Assembly: GCF_003254465.1 (NCBI RefSeq) | Contig: NZ_QDFI01000046.1 | Location: 1 to 34,285 of the forward strand | Origin: Meridianimarinicoccus zhengii | Lineage (GTDB): Bacteria; Pseudomonadota; Alphaproteobacteria; Rhodobacterales; Rhodobacteraceae | Length of the DNA: 34,285 bases | Direction: 5' to 3' | In this document: positions 4,312 through 13,928 of the stretch, piece after piece | Layout: the number at the start of each line of letters is the position of its first letter | Numbering within the stretch: the stretch's first letter is position 1 | Made by a program: the position numbers and the translations under genes | The notes under the pieces: generated by a model | What the model was told of the DNA's origin: nothing | What the model saw: the letters and a program-made list of their open reading frames with translations, nothing else | The model's database searches: none

Positions 4312-5112
4312 CTACGCCCGAAGCACCGGAAACGCGGCGGGGTCGAGGTGCGCACCCATGGTGCGGGCGAATGGGTGATCCGACCAGAACTCCGCGACCG
4401 GCCAGTCGCGCGGCCGGATGTGCGTGCCCGGATGGGCGTAGCGGATCGACAGTCTTCGGAAGACGGACGCACAGTTTCCCCCGGCCGCGTGCAGGGTGCG
4501 GGAATCCATCACGATCGCGTCGCCCTTGCCGATTTCAGGCGTGACCACGTCCCAAGCGCCGGGATCGGCATCGATGTCGGGCACCGGTGCGAGTTGTCCC
4601 GCGGCGCTGCCCAGCGTCGCATCGCCCGCCGAGAACTCGACGGGGCCATACATGGTGCCGCCGTGACTGCCGCGGGCCACGGACAGGCCGACTGGCCCCG
4701 GCGGCGGGTCGAGCGCGATCCAGATGGTCAGGAACCACGGCTCCAGCGGGTGGTAGGGGTGATCCTGGTGCCATGGACTGCGTGCGCCGGCCCCGGCTTC
4801 CGACAGGAACCATTGGTCTTCCATCAGGATCACGTCCGGGGTGCCGAAGGCTGCGCGTGCAAGCCGTGGCAACGTGCCTTCCGTGGCCACGGCACGAATG
4901 GCCGGGGTGTCGCCCCAGCGGAAAAGCTCGCTCTCCAGCCGTGGCTCGCCCGCTGGTGACAGAACGCGATGCGTCGGACCGGGTGCCGCGCGGCAGGTCT
5001 CGATCGCGGCGTTGAGCGCATCGCATTCCGCCACGCTGAGCGCGCCGGGCACCACGGCAAAGCCATCGCGCGCGAGCGCCGCGGCAATGTCGCCTTCACG
5101 TGTTTCGGTCAT
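4312..5112 (-). CDS. Phytanoyl-CoA dioxygenase (PhyH) family oxygenase
   Basis: A 266-residue Fe(II)/2-oxoglutarate oxygenase of the PhyH family, a normal length for it. The iron-binding HxD is W-H115-Q-D117 and the distal histidine is H208 in SRTLHAAGGN. An arginine in VFRRLSIRY follows at the place where 2-oxoglutarate is bound. Such enzymes hydroxylate small molecules, fatty acyl chains or natural products in the cytoplasm; the substrate is not readable here. The ATG is preceded by GAGG, and a TTG six codons upstream overlaps the previous gene. It is the last gene of the nine-gene operon, 10 bp after the SnoaL-like gene, so its substrate is probably an intermediate from the upstream Rieske step. 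Confidence 0.85.
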   Translation of the reverse strand: MTETREGDIAAALARDGFAVVPGALSVAECDALNAAIETCRAAPGPTHRVLSPAGEPRLESELFRWGDTPAIRAVATEGTLPRLARAAFGTPDVILMEDQWFLSEAGAGARSPWHQDHPYHPLEPWFLTIWIALDPPPGPVGLSVARGSHGGTMYGPVEFSAGDATLGSAAGQLAPVPDIDADPGAWDVVTPEIGKGDAIVMDSRTLHAAGGNCASVFRRLSIRYAHPGTHIRPRDWPVAEFWSDHPFARTMGAHLDPAAFPVLRA

Positions 5113-5122
5113 CGCCGTGCCC

Positions 5123-5554
5123 TCAGCCAATCTTCAGAACGCCCATCTGTTCGAAGACCGACAGCCCGTCCCACATGGACGCGCAGGCAACGATCTTGCC
5201 ATCTTTCAGGGTCAGGATGTCGATCCCGGCCATGGTGATCTGCTTGCCGGTCGCCGGGATGTCCCCGTAAGGGCCGACATGGGTGCCCAGCGTGGACCAG
5301 TGCAGCGCGACCCGGTCGCCTTCGGCCAGTAGCGCATGGATCGTCGTCGTCACGTCGCGGAAGGCGTTGAAATACCGCTCCGCGTCCTCGTGCACGACAT
5401 CGACCCCGGTCCCATCGAAATCCGTCATGTGGACCATGGCGTCCGGGTCCCAGTAGACCGGGATCGCGGACAGGTCGCCCTCTCCCCACAGCCGGGTGTG
5501 ATAGGTCCGGATCGTCGCCTTGTTAGCGTCTTGCAGGTCGGAGTGGTCCAGCAT
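5123..5554 (-). CDS. SnoaL-like/NTF2-fold protein
   Basis: A 143-residue single-domain protein of the SnoaL-like (NTF2 fold) superfamily. Typical features are the N-terminal helix NKATIRTYHTRLWGEGD, WDPDAMVHM in the pocket-forming part, and the closing strands ITMAGIDILTLKDGKI and MWDGLSVFEQMG. Family members include polyketide cyclases, isomerases, hydratases and many proteins of unknown role. It starts one base after the Rieske alpha stop region, with AAGGAG at good spacing, so the two are coupled. It probably processes the Rieske product (isomerisation, dehydration or cyclisation), but the reaction cannot be told from sequence. Confidence 0.8.
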   Translation of the reverse strand: MLDHSDLQDANKATIRTYHTRLWGEGDLSAIPVYWDPDAMVHMTDFDGTGVDVVHEDAERYFNAFRDVTTTIHALLAEGDRVALHWSTLGTHVGPYGDIPATGKQITMAGIDILTLKDGKIVACASMWDGLSVFEQMGVLKIG

Positions 5555-5555
5555 C

Positions 5556-6938
5556 TCAGGCTCCTTTCTTCGCCATCTCGCGGCGTCTGATCGTCTGCAT
5601 GAAGCGGCTGTCCTCGATCCGCGCGCGGCGGATCGTGGTCGGGATGGGCCTCGCCATCAGGCGTTTCCATTCGGCCAGGTACGCGCGCATCGGGGCTTCC
5701 GACGCGACCGTGCCGGTCACGAGCCCGTCTGCGCCCAGCACGTCACCCGCGCCGTCGCCGCGGGAGATGTCGATCCATTCCTCTTCCTCGACGGCGAGAC
5801 CCTCCTGCACGCGTTCGAACATCTCGAAATCGTCGGGCGTGCCGAAGGACAGGAAATCCTCGTCCACGCGCAGCCGCATCAGGTCGATCTCTTCCGGGGC
5901 GTCCGGTGCATGGGTCAGGTAGAACCGCAGGCGCGTGCGGTTTAGCGCCACCGGCTCGACCACCATCATCTGGTTGCCCACGAAGATGAGATTGGGAAAG
6001 ATCGACAGGTTCACCATGTCGCCGGTCATGAGGTCCCAAGTGGCGGGGTCGGTCACACCCTTCGCGCGCAGCCCGTCCTCCAGGGCTTCCCGCGTTGGCA
6101 GGGGGCGCATGGTGGACCATGGGCCGTCGGGGATACCGGGGCGCTGGTCCACGACGCAATGCCCGTGGCCAAGGGTCTTCGACACCATGGGCGTGTCGGC
6201 GGGGTTGCGGGCCAGCACCGTGTCTGTGTCTGCCTCCTTGCCGAGATGGTTGTAGGATGCGTGGGCGAAGGTGGCGTGGATGCCGTCAGCGGCGTTGTCC
6301 CAGGACATCTTCCAGTTCGCGCCGTATTCCTGCGTGAGCCGGCGCCGCTGCACGCCCATCCGCCCACCCGGATAGCGTGCCGCGTGCTGGTCGAGCCACG
6401 GGCCCGCGGCCCCCAGCCAGGTGTCGATCTCCATGGGCTCGGCCGCGAGCGTGCCGAAGACGAAGCCCGCGCGCGTGGCCAGCGCGACCTGCCCGAGATC
6501 GAAGGGCCGCTCATAGAGCCGGTCGTAGCTGTCGGGCACCGGCAGGTTCTGGATGCGCCCGTCCAGCCCGAAGGACCAGCCGTGATAGGGACAGACGAAC
6601 CGCTTCGCGCAGCCGCCATCCTCGCCCACCAGGGTCGTGCCGCGATGGGTGCAGCGGTTCAGGAGCCCGCGCAGGCCGCCATCCTCGGTGCGCACGATCA
6701 GGATCTGGCGACGGCCCATTTGGCGGCGCACGAAATCCCCCGGCGCGGGCACTTCGCTGTCATGGGCAAGGTAAACCCAGGTGCCGCCAAAGATGCGCAG
6801 CATTTCCAGATCGAACAGCGCGGGATCGGTGTAAAGGCTGCGGTGCACCACGTCGTGGCGGACAAGCCGGTCGATCAGGTCGGTCAGGTCCGGGCCGCGG
6901 GCGACGATGGCGTCGGGGCGGGTGGTGTCTTGGGTCAT
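5556..6938 (-). CDS. Rieske non-heme iron oxygenase, large (alpha) subunit
   Basis: A 460-residue ring-hydroxylating oxygenase alpha subunit of standard length. The N-terminal Rieske domain has the full CxH-x17-CxxH set (C96, H98, C116, H119) for the [2Fe-2S] cluster. The C-terminal catalytic domain carries N-x2-D218-x2-H221-x4-H226. The spacing equals the bridging aspartate and two iron-binding histidines of naphthalene-type dioxygenases. A DDFEMFERVQEGL segment near the end should supply the third ligand. The enzyme adds O2 to an aromatic ring or hydroxylates or demethylates a substrate, using electrons from NAD(P)H through a reductase. No reductase or ferredoxin is encoded nearby. The ATG follows TGAGGA, which overlaps the beta-subunit stop; the usual alpha-beta order is reversed here. 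Confidence 0.93.
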   Translation of the reverse strand: MTQDTTRPDAIVARGPDLTDLIDRLVRHDVVHRSLYTDPALFDLEMLRIFGGTWVYLAHDSEVPAPGDFVRRQMGRRQILIVRTEDGGLRGLLNRCTHRGTTLVGEDGGCAKRFVCPYHGWSFGLDGRIQNLPVPDSYDRLYERPFDLGQVALATRAGFVFGTLAAEPMEIDTWLGAAGPWLDQHAARYPGGRMGVQRRRLTQEYGANWKMSWDNAADGIHATFAHASYNHLGKEADTDTVLARNPADTPMVSKTLGHGHCVVDQRPGIPDGPWSTMRPLPTREALEDGLRAKGVTDPATWDLMTGDMVNLSIFPNLIFVGNQMMVVEPVALNRTRLRFYLTHAPDAPEEIDLMRLRVDEDFLSFGTPDDFEMFERVQEGLAVEEEEWIDISRGDGAGDVLGADGLVTGTVASEAPMRAYLAEWKRLMARPIPTTIRRARIEDSRFMQTIRRREMAKKGA

Positions 6939-6945
6939 GGCGTCC

Positions 6946-7515
6946 TCACATGATCCAGCCGAGATGCGGCGTGCCGAGGGTGAGTTCCGGCAGCAGCAGC
7001 ACCTTGGCGGTGATGCGCGGACCGGCGTCCGTGTCGCGCAGGGCGACGACCTGCCGCCCGGCAAGCCGCACCGGCGGGCCGCGGCGCACATGGGTCAGGC
7101 TGAGCGCGCAGGTGGCCAGCCAGCCCTCCGCTTCAGGCCACGCGGCGACGGGGCCCAGATGGCGGAGGGTGAGCGGCCGGGGCCGCGTGACCGCCCAGGC
7201 CTGCCGGTCGTGCATGTGCCAGGCCCGTTCGCTCAGGCGGCGGCGGTCGTCGAAGGCCAGCGCCTGGTCGCGGGCCGGGTGGTCGTCGGGATGCAGCGGG
7301 ATCCACAGGCACGCATCCGCCGTGAAGAGGTCGAGCCACGCCCCGTAGGCGCGGGCGTCCACGAGCCGCGCCTCCGCCTCCAGCACCGGTGCCGCGCGGG
7401 CGGTCGCGGCGGCGTCCCCGGCAGGCGCCGCCAGTGCGCGGTCGACCATGGCCCGCAGCGCGTCGTAGCGGTCGATGACGGCCTGCGTCGCAGCGGGGTG
7501 CGCGGCGGCGGTCAT
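6946..7515 (-). CDS. Rieske oxygenase small (beta) subunit
   Basis: A 189-residue ring-hydroxylating dioxygenase beta subunit with an NTF2-like fold and usual length. Family landmarks are the early EAEARLVDARAYGAWLDLFTADACLWIPL and the mid-protein RRRLSERAWHMHDRQAWAVTRP. The subunit is structural in alpha3beta3 oxygenases and lacks metal. Its ATG overlaps the permease stop as ATGA, and its TGA forms part of the ribosome-binding site of the alpha gene. Pairing with the adjacent alpha subunit is well supported by position. Confidence 0.88.
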   Translation of the reverse strand: MTAAAHPAATQAVIDRYDALRAMVDRALAAPAGDAAATARAAPVLEAEARLVDARAYGAWLDLFTADACLWIPLHPDDHPARDQALAFDDRRRLSERAWHMHDRQAWAVTRPRPLTLRHLGPVAAWPEAEGWLATCALSLTHVRRGPPVRLAGRQVVALRDTDAGPRITAKVLLLPELTLGTPHLGWIM

Positions 7516-9101
7516 CGGGCCACCTGTTCCGGGGCATAGACCCGCAGGACGGCGCGTTCCAGTGCACCGACGACGACATGGGCGGCGAAGGACACCAGTG
7601 TCAGGATCACGATGGCGCTCCAGAGCATGTTGTAGTTGGACGTAGACGCGGTCAGGGCCATGAGGTTGCCGATCCCCGTGCCGGTCGCCAGCCATTCGGC
7701 CACCGTCACGGCCAGAATTGCCGCGGGCACCGCCATCCGCGCGGCGGCGAAAAGCGCAGGCAGCATCGCGGGCACACGTGCGAGCAGCAATGTCCGCCAC
7801 CGCCCGGTGGCGTAGCTGTCGAACACATCGAGCACCTGTCCCGGCGCCTGCCGCAGCCCCTGGATGCAAGCGACGAGGGTGGGGAAGAAGATCATGACCG
7901 CGACGATGGTGATCGTGCCCGCCGGACCGCGCCCCAGCGCCAGCACGATCAGCGGCGCGGTCGTGACGATGGGGATGGACCGCAGCGCGACGGCCAGCGG
8001 CAGTGCCGTGCCTGCGACCCCGGGCCACGTCACGAACACGCAAGCCAGCCACGCGCCAAGGCCAAGGCCCGCAAGGTACCCTGGCAACGTGTATCCAAGC
8101 GTCTGGCCCAGTGCCGCGAAAAGCTGCGCGCGATGTTCGGCGGCGGCGGCATGGGTCACGAGGAAATCCCACACGTCGCCGGGGCGCTTGGCGAAGAACG
8201 GGTTCAGCCCGGCAGCATCCATCGCGACCTGCCAGCCAACCAGAACGACAGCGGCAGTGGCCAGCGCCGCGACGGCGGCGGACCGGGGCCGGCGCCCTCC
8301 AGTCATTGGCGAGGTGGCGAGGATCATCGCGGGGCGGTCCGGCCAAAGCCGCCGACCAGCCCAGCCGATGGCCGCATAAGCGGCGATGGACACTGCCGCG
8401 GCGATGGTGGCGAGCGCCCATGTCGCGTCCACGTCCAGCCCGCGCATGGCCCGAATGGCGAGCACGCCCATCCCGCGCTCCGCCCCCGTGAATTCGCCGA
8501 TCATCGCGCCAAGGAACGCGGCCGGGGCGGCGATCTGAAGTCCGGCAATCAGGTAGGGCATGCAGGCGAAGGCGCGGACATGCACCAGCCGCGCCCATGA
8601 CCCGCGGCCATAGCTTGTGACCAGGTCGAACCATGTGGCGGGGGCTGCGCGCAGACCCACCAGAAGCGGCACGAAGGTGGTATAGTAGCAGGCCAACGCG
8701 GCCAGCGTGACCTGCGGACCGATCCCGGGGCCGTAGAGCACGCGAAGGATCGGGCCGGTGGCCACCAGTGGCAGGCAGAAGACCAGCAGCGCCAGCGCCT
8801 GTATCGGGCGCTCCAGCCGCGGGACAAGTATCGCGACCGCCGCCAGCATGATGGCGGCAAGGTTGCCGAAGACGAAACCCAGCGTCGCGGCCCACAACGT
8901 CACGGTCAGCGCCCGCCACATCAGCCCGGCATGGATGGCAATATGTGCCAGCACATCGACCGGACCGGCCAGCAGGAAACTGCCGTCAAGACGCACCGCG
9001 GCCAACTCCCACGCGACGAGCGCACCGGCGATGCCCGCCGCGGTCCGCAGGTGGGCGGAGGCCGGACGGTGCCAGCGCGGGCTTTGCACCGCGGTCGTCA
9101 T
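7512..9101 (-). CDS. Fused tandem ABC permease (NitT/TauT type, two domains in one chain)
   Basis: A 529-residue inner-membrane importer permease of about twice the usual SsuC/TauC length (near 260). Two permease units are fused head to tail. Each has about six membrane segments and an EAA-like cytoplasmic loop: SYGRGSWARLVHVRAFACMPYLI in the first half and SYATGRWRTLLLARVPAMLPALF in the second. The junction is the charged stretch SPMTGGRRPRSA near residue 265. One chain could therefore form the whole membrane channel, where relatives need two. It overlaps the ATPase gene upstream and the Rieske beta gene downstream, each by four bases. With two NMT1-like binding proteins upstream it forms the uptake arm of the operon. 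Substrate is unknown; relatives carry sulfonates, pyrimidines or aromatic carboxylates. Confidence 0.88.
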   Translation of the reverse strand: MTTAVQSPRWHRPASAHLRTAAGIAGALVAWELAAVRLDGSFLLAGPVDVLAHIAIHAGLMWRALTVTLWAATLGFVFGNLAAIMLAAVAILVPRLERPIQALALLVFCLPLVATGPILRVLYGPGIGPQVTLAALACYYTTFVPLLVGLRAAPATWFDLVTSYGRGSWARLVHVRAFACMPYLIAGLQIAAPAAFLGAMIGEFTGAERGMGVLAIRAMRGLDVDATWALATIAAAVSIAAYAAIGWAGRRLWPDRPAMILATSPMTGGRRPRSAAVAALATAAVVLVGWQVAMDAAGLNPFFAKRPGDVWDFLVTHAAAAEHRAQLFAALGQTLGYTLPGYLAGLGLGAWLACVFVTWPGVAGTALPLAVALRSIPIVTTAPLIVLALGRGPAGTITIVAVMIFFPTLVACIQGLRQAPGQVLDVFDSYATGRWRTLLLARVPAMLPALFAAARMAVPAAILAVTVAEWLATGTGIGNLMALTASTSNYNMLWSAIVILTLVSFAAHVVVGALERAVLRVYAPEQVAR

Positions 9102-9909
9102 TCTGCCGCCGCTGCCAGCCGGGGCCCGGCGGCGTCCGTGCCGAATAGCGCGCCGGTGACTTGCGCGCCGATTGCGCGAAAAGCATCCGTATCGACCAGG
9201 TCGCGGCGCCGGGGACGCGCGAAGGGGACCGCGACGTCGCCAATGACCCGCGCCGGGCGATCCGACAGGACGATGACGCGGTCGGACAGCAATACCGCCT
9301 CGCTCACGGAATGGGTGACGAGCAGGGTCGTGGCACCCTGCCGTTCCCAGACCGGCGGCAATTCGATGTTCAGCCTGCGGCGGGTCAACTCATCCACCGC
9401 ACCGAAAGGTTCGTGAGCAGCAGCAGGCGCGGCGCGGTAACAAGGCACCGGGCGATGGCGGCGCGCTGCCGCATCCCGCCCGACAGTTCCGCCGGGCGAC
9501 GATCCTCGAAACCTGCCAGCCCGACCATGGCGATTAGCGCCGCGACGAAATCGTCGTCGCGCGGCAGACGGGCCAGATGGCGCGCCAGTTCGACATTGCG
9601 CCGCACAGTACGCCACGGCAGCAGCGACGGGTCCTGAAACGCCACCGACAGCGCGCCGCTGCGGCGCAGCGCGTCGGGCGGCTCCCCACCGATGCGCACC
9701 GCGCCTTCGGTGACCGGCTCAAGCCCGGCGATCATCCGCAGCAAGGTGGATTTGCCGCATCCCGATGGCCCGACCAGCGCCGTCGTGGTGCCCGGCCCCA
9801 GCGCGAGATCCGTGGGTGCGACGGCTGCAACCGCGGTTTCGCCCGTGCCGAAGGTCTTGGCGACGGCGTGGCACCGGATGTCGGGCGGTGCGGGCCGGTC
9901 AGGTTCCAT
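9098..9909 (-). pseudogene. ABC importer ATPase (NitT/TauT type) with a one-base frameshift at Walker B
   Basis: When reconstructed this is a ~270-residue ATP-binding subunit partner of the fused permease. Walker [10 protein letters not shown] (47-55), Q-loop [10 protein letters not shown] and signature LSGGMRQR (142-149) lie in the first frame. That frame then reads [12 protein letters not shown] and stops. The adjacent frame continues perfectly as EPFGAVDE and then TTLLVTHSVSEAVLLSDRV (H-loop). Inserting a single C on the plus strand between 9414 and 9415 restores [14 protein letters not shown]. The lesion therefore falls exactly in Walker B and removes the catalytic half. Both flanks read as intact, conserved ATPase, so this is either a very recent mutation or a sequencing/assembly error. 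The start ATG follows GGAGG and overlaps the preceding binding-protein gene by 11 bases. If real, the importer would need another ATPase. Confidence 0.9.
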
Positions 9910-10897
9910 GCACCTCCTCCAGTATCGACCGGTCCCACAGGTCGGGGCTGACCGTCTGGCCGAGCAGCGCCAGCGTCTCCACGTTGGCGGCCACCGTGTC
10001 GTCGGTGAACCAGCCGAAACCGTTCTTTGCCGTCAGGTCGGAGAACATCAGCGGCACCTGCCGCGCCGCCTGCAATTTCTGGGTTTCGAGGTCGAGCCCG
10101 GCATCGGGGAACATCTCTACCGTCAGTGCTGCGGCGGCGTCCGTGTCGGCGTGATAGTCGGTCCAGCCCATCACCTCGCCACGCAAAAGGGCGACCAGCG
10201 TCGCACGATCATTCGCCAGCGTCTCCTCGGTGACGATGTAGGTCTGGGAATGGACCGAATGGCCGTGATCGGCCATCAGCATCACGATCGGGTCGGCGCC
10301 CTGTACGATCATGGCGACCGGCAGGTCGGTGGCCCATGACAGGATACAATCGACCTGCCCGTTCATCAGTGGCGCGGCGTCGTATTGCGTCGGCACGATC
10401 TCGATAGCGTCGAAATCCACGCCGTTGATATCGCAGAGCGCACGCAGGACCGGCGTGTTGGCCGTGGCCATGCCGATGGACCTGCCTTCGAGATCCGCGG
10501 GCGCGTTGACCGGGCTGTCCGGAAGCGACGAGATCGCGAAGGGGTTCTTCTGCATCGCCACCGCGATGATCTTGAAGGGCGCGCCCTGCGCCACCGCGGC
10601 GGCCGTGTAGTCGGCGGCCGAGATGCCCATGATCGCGTTGCCCGCGACGACCGGCGGTTCAACGGGCGCGTTCGGCCCGCCGGGGTTCAACGCGACCGCG
10701 AGCCCGAGATCGGTCCAGTAGCCCCGGTCGCGCGCGATGTAGCTGCCGCCGAACTGGACCGAATGCAGCCATGACAGCTGGAAATTGACCGCGGTCTGCG
10801 CCGCAAGGCGGCCGGGGCGCAAGCCGAAGGCGGCAGCGCCAAGGGCACCGCCACCCGTCTGCAACAACCGACGTCGGGAAAGGGAAAGACGAGTCAT
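9899..10897 (-). CDS. NMT1/THI5-like ABC substrate-binding protein, Tat-type signal
   Basis: A 332-residue periplasmic binding protein. The N-terminus [16 protein letters not shown] is a twin-arginine signal with the SRRRLL motif and a hydrophobic GALGAAAFG core, with likely cleavage near LAAQ. The mature part, starting [23 protein letters not shown], fits NMT1/THI5-like proteins that deliver small cyclic or acidic ligands to TauBC-type transporters. Use of Tat suggests folding before export. AAGGAG lies seven bases before the chosen ATG, which supports this start over earlier ones. The gene ends inside the ATPase start. It is the second of two paralogous binding proteins, so the importer may recognise two related ligands. 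Confidence 0.88.
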
Positions 10898-10937
10898 GGG
10901 CGGGCTCCTTGGCTGGTGCGGCGGGGGGACGGGGCGC

Positions 10938-11885
10938 TTAGTCGGACATGAAGCCGAGATCGTAGACGGCAGAGACATCGAGCGTTTCCGGGTAGACGCC
11001 CGCGGCGATCATCGTGTCGGCAAAGGACTGCCATCGCGCGGCGTCCATCGCGCCGATGGGCAGGCCGGCTTCGCCCGTCACGAGATTACGGGCGCGCATC
11101 TGGTCGAGCTTGAAATCGAACAGGGCCGCGGTGTGATCCGGGTTGGCATCGAGGATCGCCGCCTTGCCCGCGGTGGCATCCCCGTCAAGGCACTGTCGAT
11201 ACCCTTCGGCCGTAGCGTCAAGAAACGCCTGCACGGCGTCCCGGTTCGCCTCGATCCAGTCCCGCATGCCGTAAACGGTGGTGGCGTAATCCTCGAACCC
11301 GTGGTCGGCGAGCAGGATGGACACCGGGTCTTCGTCCATCTCGGCGCCCAGCAGATGGGCATCCTCGGTCACATAGCCCTGCTGCACCGCCATCTTGTCC
11401 GCAAGGAACGGTGCCGCGGAATAGGCATAGGGCGCAAGCTGGTCGTCGCTGAACCCGTGTTCCGCCTTCAGGAACTGCCAGAATTCCTGCCGCGAGAAAT
11501 TGGCGACCATGATCTGGCGGTCGCGCAGGTCCGCAAGCGTCTCGACCCCGGTGCCGGGATGGGCCACCAGCGTCTGGGGCGATTTCTGCATGAACGCGGC
11601 GACCGTGACCGCGTCGATGCCCTGCGTGGCCATGTTCAGCGCGGTAAAGGCCGACCCCATGCCCAGATCGACCCGTCCGCCGACGACAAGCTGGTTGACG
11701 TTGACGTTCGGCCCGCCGGGCAGGATCTCCACCGTCAGGCCCGCATCTTCATAGAGGCCCGCGGCCGCGGCCTGGAAGAAGCCGCAATGCTCCCCCTGCG
11801 GCAGCCAGTTGAGGCTGTAGCTGATCTCGGTCGCGGCGGCGGGTGTGGCCAGCAGCGCGGCACAGGTGACGGCCCGGATGTTCAT
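10938..11885 (-). CDS. NMT1/THI5-like ABC substrate-binding protein, Sec-type signal
   Basis: A 315-residue periplasmic binding protein with a short Sec signal (MNIRAVTCAALLATPAAA, likely cleaved before TEI). The mature start, SYSLNWLPQGEHCGFFQA followed by GLYEDAGLTVEI, is the usual NMT1/THI5 opening, in which aromatic residues stack on a ring-shaped ligand in pyrimidine-binding relatives. The ATG overlaps the stop of the 2-oxoglutarate oxygenase gene as ATGA. A 40-bp gap separates it from the second binding protein, the widest gap in the operon. It differs clearly from the neighbouring paralogue and uses another export route, so the two probably bind different forms of the nutrient (inference). 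Confidence 0.87.
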   Translation of the reverse strand: MNIRAVTCAALLATPAAATEISYSLNWLPQGEHCGFFQAAAAGLYEDAGLTVEILPGGPNVNVNQLVVGGRVDLGMGSAFTALNMATQGIDAVTVAAFMQKSPQTLVAHPGTGVETLADLRDRQIMVANFSRQEFWQFLKAEHGFSDDQLAPYAYSAAPFLADKMAVQQGYVTEDAHLLGAEMDEDPVSILLADHGFEDYATTVYGMRDWIEANRDAVQAFLDATAEGYRQCLDGDATAGKAAILDANPDHTAALFDFKLDQMRARNLVTGEAGLPIGAMDAARWQSFADTMIAAGVYPETLDVSAVYDLGFMSD

Positions 11886-12850
11886 TTGGCTTCGCTCAGC
11901 TCCATGGAGGCACGGATTTTCGACATGATGTATTCGCCGCATTTGACCGGCTCGAACTGCGGGGGGTTTTCGGCGGATTGGCAGGTGGGCAGGCAGGAAA
12001 TCTCGGTGCCCTCGTTCGGTCCGGTGAAGGCCACCATGGACAGCCGCCGCGTCGACCCGGTCAGGTGCCGCGCCGGGTTCGACACGCGGTGTAGGGTCGA
12101 ATGCCAGCGGTTGTTGGTCCAACGCGCCATCAGGTCGCCGACGTTGACAATGAAACTGTCGGGCACGACCGGCGCCTCGCGCCACGTGCCGGTGTCGTCG
12201 CGGATCTGCAGACCGCCCGGCGCCTCGTCTTGCCGCAGGATCGTCAGTGCGCCGTAATCATGATGCGCACCATAGCGCAGCTGCCCCGGCGCGGGTTCCT
12301 CGGGCTGGTCGGGATAGTTCACGAAGCGCAGCGTGAGCGAAGGGTCGGCATAGGGTCCCGCGAAATGGGTTTCCGGCAAATCGAGCGCGAGCGCGGACAG
12401 CCGCGACAGGTGCTGTGTCAGCGCCGCCATCTCGCCCGTCCATTCCCGGATCAGCCCGGCCAGTTCCGGCGGGTAATCGGGCCAGATGTTGGTGTCGCTG
12501 CCGGGCCGGTGCGGGGCCGCGAAGACCAGCGCCTCGCACAGGTCGGGCGGCGTCTCCCCGGTCAGGGTCTTCGCCACGCTTTCGATCCCCATGGGCAGAT
12601 AGCCCCGGCCCTTCGCCTTTTCGGGCGGGCTGAGGGCCATCTTGGCGTCCATCGGCTGGTCGAAGAACCGCGTCAGCGCCGCATAGGTGTCGTCGGCCAG
12701 CGTCGCGGGCACGCCGTGGCCGACGAGGATGGCGAAGCCCGTATCCTCGAATGCCTGTGCGAAGGTCTGCGCCACCCGCGCCTTCGCGCCCGGATCCCCA
12801 CCGAGAAAGGGCGACAGATCGACGATCGGCAATTCGATTTCACTGGCCAT
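11882..12850 (-). CDS. Isopenicillin-N-synthase-fold 2-oxoglutarate/Fe(II) oxygenase
   Basis: A 322-residue enzyme of the IPNS-like 2OG-Fe(II) family. The N-terminal part has LPIVDLSPFLGG and TGFAILVGHGVP, the typical DIOX_N features. The iron site is H196-x-D198 in GAHHDYGALTIL plus H254 in WHSTLHRV, and R269-x-S271 binds the 2-oxoglutarate carboxylate, so it looks active. Relatives hydroxylate, desaturate or cyclise small molecules. The ATG with GGAG upstream is preferred to a GTG ten codons earlier, because the ribosome site lies between them. It is the first gene of the leftward operon and faces the divergent LysR gene, so it is probably made first and controlled by that regulator. Confidence 0.9.
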   Translation of the reverse strand: MASEIELPIVDLSPFLGGDPGAKARVAQTFAQAFEDTGFAILVGHGVPATLADDTYAALTRFFDQPMDAKMALSPPEKAKGRGYLPMGIESVAKTLTGETPPDLCEALVFAAPHRPGSDTNIWPDYPPELAGLIREWTGEMAALTQHLSRLSALALDLPETHFAGPYADPSLTLRFVNYPDQPEEPAPGQLRYGAHHDYGALTILRQDEAPGGLQIRDDTGTWREAPVVPDSFIVNVGDLMARWTNNRWHSTLHRVSNPARHLTGSTRRLSMVAFTGPNEGTEISCLPTCQSAENPPQFEPVKCGEYIMSKIRASMELSEAK

Positions 12851-13010: not shown

Positions 13011-13928
13011 ATGCTGCATTCCAGCCTGTTGAACCAGATTGACGCGGTGGCCCGCGCGGGGTCCATCCGCGGCGCGTCCGACCTGCTCAACGTGTCGGCC
13101 TCATCGATCAACAGGCGCCTGATCCAGCTTGAAGAAGAACTCGGCAGCCCCTTGTTCCTGCGCCAGAAATCCGGGATGCGACCCACTGCGGCGGGGGAGG
13201 TCGTGCTGGCCCATATCCGCCAGACCCTGCGCGACGCGGACCGGATGGCGAACCGCCTTGACGAGTTGCGGGGAACCGGCGGCGCTCGAGTGCGGATTTC
13301 GGCCATGCAGGGCCTGACGGAAGGTCTTTTGCCCCGGGTCCTGTCCGAATTCCGGCAAAGCCACCCTGCTGTCTGCGTGACGGTGCGTGCCCGCGTTTTG
13401 GGCGATGTGCAAACGGATCTCGAGTCCGGCGAGGCGGATCTGGGCCTTACCTATGCGTTGCCGCAGGATCAGGACCTGCCGATGGCCGACGTATTTCCGA
13501 CCCGACTCGGGGCCGTGGTCGCCATCGACCATCCGCTTGCCAGTCGGTCGGACATGCGCTTGTCGGACCTGCAGGACTGGCCGCTCGCGGTCGCGGACGA
13601 ATCCCTGATCATCCACGCGCTGATAGCCGAGGCATTCAGCAGGGCAGGGCTCCTGTTGGCCCCGGCGTACCATTCAAATTCGCCCGGGTTCCTGAAATAC
13701 TTGGCGCGGTCCGGCGCGGCCGTGACCTTCCTGTCCCGGATCGACGTGGACGAGGATCTGCGCGCCGGGCGGTTGCGGTATATCCCGCTGCTCGGCCGGA
13801 CGCTGCGCAATCACGAACTGCGGCTCGGGCATCGGCGCGGTGCGATGCTGACCCCGGCTATAGCACTCGTGTCTGAGCAACTCCGCCGCGCGCTGATCGC
13901 GGTGCAGTCATTCGACATCGGCAAGTGA
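13011..13928 (+). CDS. LysR-family transcriptional regulator of the oxygenase operon
   Basis: A 305-residue LysR regulator. The N-terminal winged helix-turn-helix covers about residues 5-62 (AGSIRGASDLLNVSASSINRRLIQLEEELGSPLFLR). The rest is a periplasmic-binding-protein-like effector domain with RVRISAMQGLTEGLLPRVL as its first strand and helix. The ATG is preceded by AAGGGA. It is transcribed away from the nine-gene oxygenase and uptake operon, the classic LysR arrangement, so it probably responds to the imported compound or an early product and also controls itself. The effector is unknown. Confidence 0.9.
   Translation: MLHSSLLNQIDAVARAGSIRGASDLLNVSASSINRRLIQLEEELGSPLFLRQKSGMRPTAAGEVVLAHIRQTLRDADRMANRLDELRGTGGARVRISAMQGLTEGLLPRVLSEFRQSHPAVCVTVRARVLGDVQTDLESGEADLGLTYALPQDQDLPMADVFPTRLGAVVAIDHPLASRSDMRLSDLQDWPLAVADESLIIHALIAEAFSRAGLLLAPAYHSNSPGFLKYLARSGAAVTFLSRIDVDEDLRAGRLRYIPLLGRTLRNHELRLGHRRGAMLTPAIALVSEQLRRALIAVQSFDIGK

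Follow-up and report, generated by a model that had tools for sequence, protein, structure and literature searches.

The 34,285-nt stretch of Meridianimarinicoccus zhengii DNA analysed here (contig NZ_QDFI01000046.1; hereafter the window) carries on its minus strand nine closely packed genes for an importer and several oxygenases, which raises the question of what compound they take up and oxidise. A sequence-only reading had described them as a nine-gene leftward uptake and triple-oxygenase operon. We found that the importer and both subunits of a Rieske oxygenase make up the conserved core of this operon. The operon is most likely catabolic and combines known enzyme families in a way for which we found no described pathway. 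As to its substrate, the sequence data point tentatively, and with slightly less than an even chance, to the uptake and oxidative catabolism of a small N-heterocycle.

The genes span positions 4312-12850 in the order that had been read, all on the minus strand and with intergenic gaps of -11 to +40 bases. Each of them gave Pfam matches above the cut-offs, the ATPase through its N-terminal part, so that the operon and its named families were borne out. The features are listed below, together with a divergent gene that is probably the regulator of the operon.

11882..12850, minus strand: 2-oxoglutarate (2OG)-Fe(II) oxygenase of the isopenicillin N synthase (IPNS) fold, 322 amino acids (aa); Pfam DIOX_N 7e-21, 2OG-FeII_Oxy 1.8e-19.
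10938..11885, minus strand: SBP1, an NMT1/ThiY-type substrate-binding protein of about 315 aa; Pfam NMT1 1.7e-25; with its start read at 11885, it overlaps the IPNS-fold gene by 4 bases.
9899..10897, minus strand: SBP2, an NMT1/ThiY-type substrate-binding protein of 332 aa; Pfam NMT1 1.4e-38.
9098..9909, minus strand: ATP-binding cassette (ABC) transporter ATPase, its frame changed near 9410 (Walker B region); Pfam ABC_tran in the N-terminal part.
7512..9101, minus strand: fused ABC permease, a single chain of 529 aa that holds both permease units; BPD_transp_1 twice.
6946..7515, minus strand: Rieske oxygenase beta subunit, 189 aa; Ring_hydroxyl_B 2.5e-10.
5556..6938, minus strand: Rieske oxygenase alpha subunit, 460 aa; Rieske 1.2e-19, Ring_hydroxyl_A 7.8e-12.
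5123..5554, minus strand: SnoaL-like protein, 143 aa; SnoaL 2.9e-27.
4312..5112, minus strand: 2OG-Fe(II) oxygenase of the PhyH type, 266 aa; PhyH 2.7e-19.
13011..13928, plus strand: divergent LysR-type regulator; open frame, with family and start read by eye.

Public contigs were scanned with the Rieske alpha subunit, and the best 79 loci were kept as the matches listed. These loci and the corresponding region of G212, a genome of another genus in the same family, were searched with the operon proteins at an E-value of 1e-10, in flanks of up to 10 kb (some contigs being short). The G212 region contains the divergent LysR gene and the full nine-gene operon in unchanged order, with an SBP1 that is 69% identical. 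All 13 listed loci whose alpha subunit is at least 54% identical carry the genes for SBP2, ATPase, permease, beta and alpha in that order and on one strand. They belong to Harenicola, two Pacificibacter, a Bauldia metagenome-assembled genome (MAG) and nine MAGs of Acidimicrobiia/Acidimicrobiaceae. The proposed neighbourhood check of the fused permease against the Rieske alpha subunit thus turned out positive in 14 other loci, and a fused permease of similar length is found in the 14 relatives. Among the 66 listed loci with an alpha subunit at 45% identity or below, none had SBP2 or the permease within the examined flanks. A LysR homologue lies divergent from the operon in loci L007, L008, L009 and L010 (39-40% identity) and in G212 (59%). 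In a FastTree phylogeny of 81 alpha subunits, the 15 linked ones (our own, that of G212 and those of the 13 loci) form a single clade with a support of 0.999, in which six alphaproteobacterial and nine acidimicrobial sequences are sister clades. Since another genus keeps the gene order and both Alphaproteobacteria and Acidimicrobiia keep the core, the operon is not a chance arrangement, and its conserved core is the importer with Rieske beta and alpha.

The three oxygenases do not form a fixed core. Of the linked loci, L007-L010, G212 and our own are the only ones with the IPNS-type gene, and L007-L010 and G212 are the only linked relatives with the SnoaL gene; the nine Acidimicrobiia lack both. 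The PhyH gene is present in this operon, G212, Bauldia and the nine Acidimicrobiia and is absent in Pacificibacter and Harenicola. The 2OG enzymes may stand in for one another or serve side routes. Among 390 genomes of the order searched with the Rieske alpha subunit, three gave a match, two of which are orthologues (our own and that of G212) and the third of which is 33% identical. The plasmid search with the same protein gave a best match of 45% and no close relative. In the Nostoc relatives (L020 and L021, alpha at 44-45%), alpha and beta are neighbours of a gene judged by eye to be glutamine-synthetase-like, with no importer match. In locus L011 (12728-19779) and several similar Acidimicrobiia MAGs, the genes downstream of PhyH encode an enolase-superfamily protein, a pair of amidohydrolases of the deaminase/chlorohydrolase type and a Rieske oxygenase of the VanA type.

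The binding proteins were examined for what they may bind. SBP2, which is 28% identical to SBP1, gave an AlphaFold model with a predicted local distance difference test score (pLDDT) of 84 and a predicted template modelling score (pTM) of 0.81. In the Foldseek search with this model, ranks 1-21 were held by a thiamin-binding protein (4nmy), ThiY (3ix1) and Thi5 entries with template modelling (TM) scores of 0.65-0.75, followed at lower ranks by a Bordetella exported protein and by binders of pyrroloquinoline quinone, taurine and sulfonates. Pfam NMT1 and Foldseek thus both place SBP2 in the NMT1/Thi5 fold. A ring-containing or carboxylated compound had been expected from aromatic-binding pockets together with a Rieske enzyme. 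The pocket is now narrowed to a ThiY/Thi5-type fold that, as modelled, favours a pyrimidine- or pyridine-like ring as the putative ligand.

The same fold would also suit an importer of vitamin B1 precursors, hydroxymethylpyrimidine or formylaminopyrimidine (HMP/FAMP), that adjoins a degradation operon by coincidence; the presence of the importer without oxygenases in many genomes agrees with this. We consider it quite unlikely, as no thiamin pyrophosphate (TPP) riboswitch reached the Rfam gathering score in any of 13 scanned sources (six operon-bearing ones, including the window, and seven importer-only ones), no thi gene is among the nine, and the importer stays linked to the Rieske genes in Alphaproteobacteria and Acidimicrobiia alike. 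Thiamin salvage was rejected on the riboswitch result. ThiXYZ-type uptake of formylaminopyrimidine/thiamin (ThiY 3ix1, thiamin-binding 4nmy) has the binding-protein fold and the NMT1 family in common with our operon, which differs from it by an identity of 18-20%, the fused permease, the linkage to oxygenases and the lack of a TPP riboswitch in the sources scanned.

The importer had been called dedicated. A search for the fused permease covered 380 genomes of the order and found 61 with a match at an E-value of 1e-60 or better. The identity was at least 57% in 54 of these genomes, at 55 places that include our own genome (G000) and G212, and two of the 54 have the operon; these 380 genomes and the 390 searched with alpha are possibly not identical sets. 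We sampled 20 of the 53 other importer places. SBP2 and the permease were present in all 20, and none contained alpha, beta, SnoaL, PhyH, the IPNS-type enzyme, creatininase, RidA, flavin adenine dinucleotide (FAD) oxidase or deaminase at an E-value of 1e-5. The importer is thus not exclusive to these oxygenases and serves other settings too, which limits the dedicated label. In midpoint-rooted trees of SBP2 and of the permease (35 sequences each), the importers of Acidimicrobiia, Bauldia and Pacificibacter/Harenicola branch outside, and those of our genome and G212 group with or beside Rieske-free importers, some nodes being weak (0.07-0.71). The two trees conflict in detail, and no firm history of the importer is drawn from them. 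Among the importer-only loci (L142-L161), 14 of the 20 carry an LPG_synthase_TM gene of the kind seen in L151, from which the Pfam names were taken, and all carry a gene for a GT4-type glycosyltransferase at the permease end. In L146 (12921-15634), a Rieske gene of another type (LigXa_C) and then a glutamine-synthetase gene are found near the importer.

The Rieske alpha subunit has the motifs CTH-X17-CPYH at residue 96 and DGIHATFAH at residue 218 (CxH-X17-CxxH and D-x2-H-x4-H). With a CxH-X15-18-CxxH site, a D-x2-H-x4-H iron site and an adjacent beta gene, the enzyme is of the Rieske alpha/beta type. Its best NCBIfam models were those of BenA (TIGR03229; 184.9 bits vs a cut-off of 780.95) and AntA (TIGR03228; 163.3 vs 671.9 bits), so that an identity as a benzoate or anthranilate dioxygenase was dropped on these curated cut-offs. 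Its best solved relative is 7yls, which we take to be an auxin-degradation (indole-3-acetate, Iad/Iac-type) oxygenase. The alpha subunit of 7yls is of the same broad group as that of the operon, whereas the alpha relatives of 33-45% identity in the tree, which does not include 7yls itself, fall outside the importer-linked clade.

These likenesses speak for a pathway that degrades a carbocyclic aromatic or indole-like acid, in which an ordinary benzoate/auxin-type ring dioxygenase would act and the 2OG enzymes would trim side chains. We regard this as unlikely. The family scores lie far below the cut-offs, Pfam shows neither a ring-cleavage enzyme nor a diol dehydrogenase in the nine genes, to which that search was confined, and a ThiY-type importer combined with the deaminase/creatininase/RidA module described below fits a benzenoid acid poorly.

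The msm operons for methanesulfonate (msmEFGH-msmABCD), which also carry their own reductase, offer another comparison. According to PMC4433239, they too place an ABC importer beside a Rieske alpha/beta oxygenase, which would support a sulfonate (methanesulfonate-type) importer with its monooxygenase. However, SBP2 ranks ThiY and Thi5 above SsuA and TauA, and we hold this explanation to be highly improbable. The same paper gives msm its own ferredoxin, whereas the operon here has a pair of ThiY-type binding proteins together with a fused permease and two 2OG oxygenases. Methanesulfonate monooxygenase itself was ruled out by the spacer in CxH-Xn-CxxH, which has 17 residues in our alpha and 26 in MsmA (PMC4433239), and by the lack of a ferredoxin or reductase among the nine genes. 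Elsewhere in the genome, NAD_binding_1 gave three matches, one of them beside a second Rieske alpha on contig C188. At this site (G000:C188:51972-53382), that alpha and its adjoining reductase-domain match may offer a shared electron donor.

Both 2OG oxygenases have the HxD...H iron triad and the 2OG-binding Arg: H196/D198 (HHD), H254 and RLS 269 in the IPNS-fold enzyme and H115/D117, H208 and RLS 220 in the PhyH enzyme, the distal His being assigned by motif in each. In a phmmer search, the best sequences of solved structures for the IPNS-fold enzyme were the ethylene-forming enzyme (2e-41) and then thymine dioxygenase (2e-37). These are its nearest solved relatives, set against nine genes without a pyrimidine salvage gene. 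For the PhyH enzyme, the best PDB match by both sequence (2e-12) and fold (TM 0.69) was MysH, which is part of a biosynthetic cluster according to PMC10510106. One could thus imagine the catabolism of mycosporine-like amino acids, with the PhyH enzyme acting like MysH on the glycine side chain and RidA and amidohydrolases acting on the imine. This seems improbable: the identity to MysH is about 20%, SnoN and SnoK are nearly tied with it by fold on a structure model of moderate confidence (pLDDT 74), and Pacificibacter and Harenicola lack the PhyH gene. No supporting paper was among the literature matches listed, and those listed concern biosynthesis. Within the nine genes, to which the search was confined, Pfam showed no family of the mys type.

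What accompanies the oxygenases in other Alphaproteobacteria is a partner module of a cytosine-deaminase-like amidohydrolase, a creatininase-like enzyme, RidA and an FAD oxidase. All five other alphaproteobacterial loci have the entire module or parts of it next to the operon, with the FAD oxidase in 5/5 (G212 included), creatininase and RidA in 4/5 each and the deaminase in 3/5; RidA and creatininase-family genes are close to the operon in Pacificibacter, Harenicola and Bauldia. The FAD oxidase is just 39% alike in Bauldia and is incomplete in L007, L008 and L010, where the locus ends within it. As the module genes occur near the operon and in none of the 20 importer-only loci, the module goes with the oxygenases and not with the importer. 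The nine genes had been thought to encode a complete route. This is probably not so, given the adjacent module parts and the lack of a reductase or ferredoxin among the nine.

In our own genome, the module is complete on contig C155 (creatininase homologue 50%, deaminase 60% and divergent RidA 57% identical):

L090, 9237-18190, own genome: C155 cluster with a ThiY-type ABC importer and a divergent RidA gene.

The run consists of genes for a binding protein, an ATPase, a permease, the deaminase, the FAD oxidase, two NAD(P)H-oxidoreductase-like proteins, a 2OG oxygenase and the creatininase. The deaminase matches NF005759, 'cytosine deaminase', at 622 vs a cut-off of 403 bits and is the only scanned module protein to pass an NCBIfam cut-off. 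SBP1 was compared with seven binding proteins of the partner-module type and is 32-39% identical to six of them. Similar clusters of varying content are present on plasmids of Pseudooceanicola, Sulfitobacter, Paroceanicella, Rhizobium, Ruegeria, Agrobacterium, Klebsiella and Pantoea; that of Agrobacterium shows no deaminase and that of Ruegeria no adjacent permease. We found no published substrate for a cluster of the C155 type (ThiY-type importer, deaminase, FAD oxidase, creatininase and RidA). The Klebsiella locus L131 (800-13316) contains two ThiY-type binding proteins, two amidohydrolases of the deaminase type, creatininase, RidA, a 2OG oxygenase and a PDR/VanB-family reductase; none of the genes annotated there is a Rieske alpha.

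The N-heterocycle is suggested by the ThiY/Thi5 fold, the likeness to thymine dioxygenase and the partner module, whose binding proteins SBP1 resembles. An amino substituent on the ring would agree with finding a deaminase, a member of a cyclic-amide hydrolase family and RidA next to the operon. We therefore favour N-heterocycle catabolism ahead of the readings that involve a carbocyclic acid, the uptake of a thiamin precursor or mycosporine-like amino acids. More specifically, and with appreciably less assurance, Alphaproteobacteria and Acidimicrobiia might share an undescribed aerobic pathway in which ThiY-type importers take up an amino-substituted N-heteroaromatic compound and the Rieske oxygenase breaks it down with one or two 2OG oxygenases, joined in Alphaproteobacteria by the deaminase/creatininase/RidA/FAD-oxidase module. 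A modified nucleobase, the thiamin pyrimidine or a pterin-like compound could then, with the same reserve, be the substrate.

In the favoured reading, N-heterocycle catabolism, the two ThiY-type binding proteins would hand the compound to the ATPase and the fused permease, and a 2OG oxygenase (of the IPNS fold, the PhyH type or both) would hydroxylate or dealkylate a substituent. Rieske alpha/beta, served by a reductase encoded elsewhere, would oxygenate the ring or remove a substituent, and the SnoaL-like protein would handle an unstable product. The cytosine-deaminase-like amidohydrolase of the partner module would remove an exocyclic amine, the FAD oxidase would oxidise an alcohol, the creatininase-like enzyme would open a cyclic amide and RidA would hydrolyse the resulting enamine or imine. 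The LysR regulator would control the operon.

Several observations weigh against the N-heterocycle. The ThiY/Thi5-type fold matches of SBP2 are at just 17-20% identity, SBP1 is just 20% identical to the Agrobacterium partner-type binding protein, and the importer is found without oxygenases in many genomes. The NCBIfam models nearest to the Rieske alpha subunit, though far below their cut-offs, are those of benzoate and anthranilate dioxygenases, which keeps a carbocyclic acid among the possible substrates. Neither a ferredoxin nor a reductase is encoded by the operon. The partner module of our own genome sits on a separate contig from the operon, and its genes were found in none of the nine Acidimicrobiia loci, six of which have other amidohydrolases nearby.

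The earlier remark that no described pathway with this gene set is known has stood, as neither a family model nor a listed literature match names one. Our literature search, mostly without subscription papers and preprints, listed no match for a pathway pairing a ThiY-type importer, Rieske alpha/beta, 2OG oxygenases and the deaminase/creatininase/RidA module. The matches listed for pyrimidine catabolism, creatininase/RidA, NMT1/Rieske and Acidimicrobiia held nothing relevant. The homarine pathway was dropped, no relevant paper being among the matches listed.

The question remains whether the route operates in this strain. The ATPase is not a single open frame and is split over two overlapping ones: that of 9388-9909 holds Walker A and LSGG, and the C-terminal part continues in another frame to 9098, the switch lying near 9410 in the Walker B region. 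Pfam gives no match for the C-terminal part, which NCBIfam identifies as the C-terminus of a nitrate/taurine-type ATPase. The gene is one frame in 14/14 relatives, which would fit an operon that is decaying in this strain through a genuine loss-of-function mutation. Against this, all other genes are open, and the N- and C-terminal parts appear similarly constrained in comparison with G212 (67% and 62% amino-acid identity; nonsynonymous divergence, dN, of 0.29 and 0.28). The similar constraint points to a frame change that either arose by recent mutation or is an error in the sequence, and in a draft assembly of 220 contigs an error is about as likely. We thus consider decay plausible, though somewhat less probable than an operon that is not decaying. 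If the frame change is real, the catabolic route may be off in this strain.

The importer that stands without oxygenases beside a glycosyltransferase gene in 20/20 sampled loci is a second testable puzzle. As to the first, naming the substrate would annotate many genomes, given that relatives of the FAD oxidase occur in 69/380 genomes of the order at an E-value of 1e-100 (42-100% identity) and that plasmids of Rhizobium, Pantoea and Klebsiella carry such clusters.

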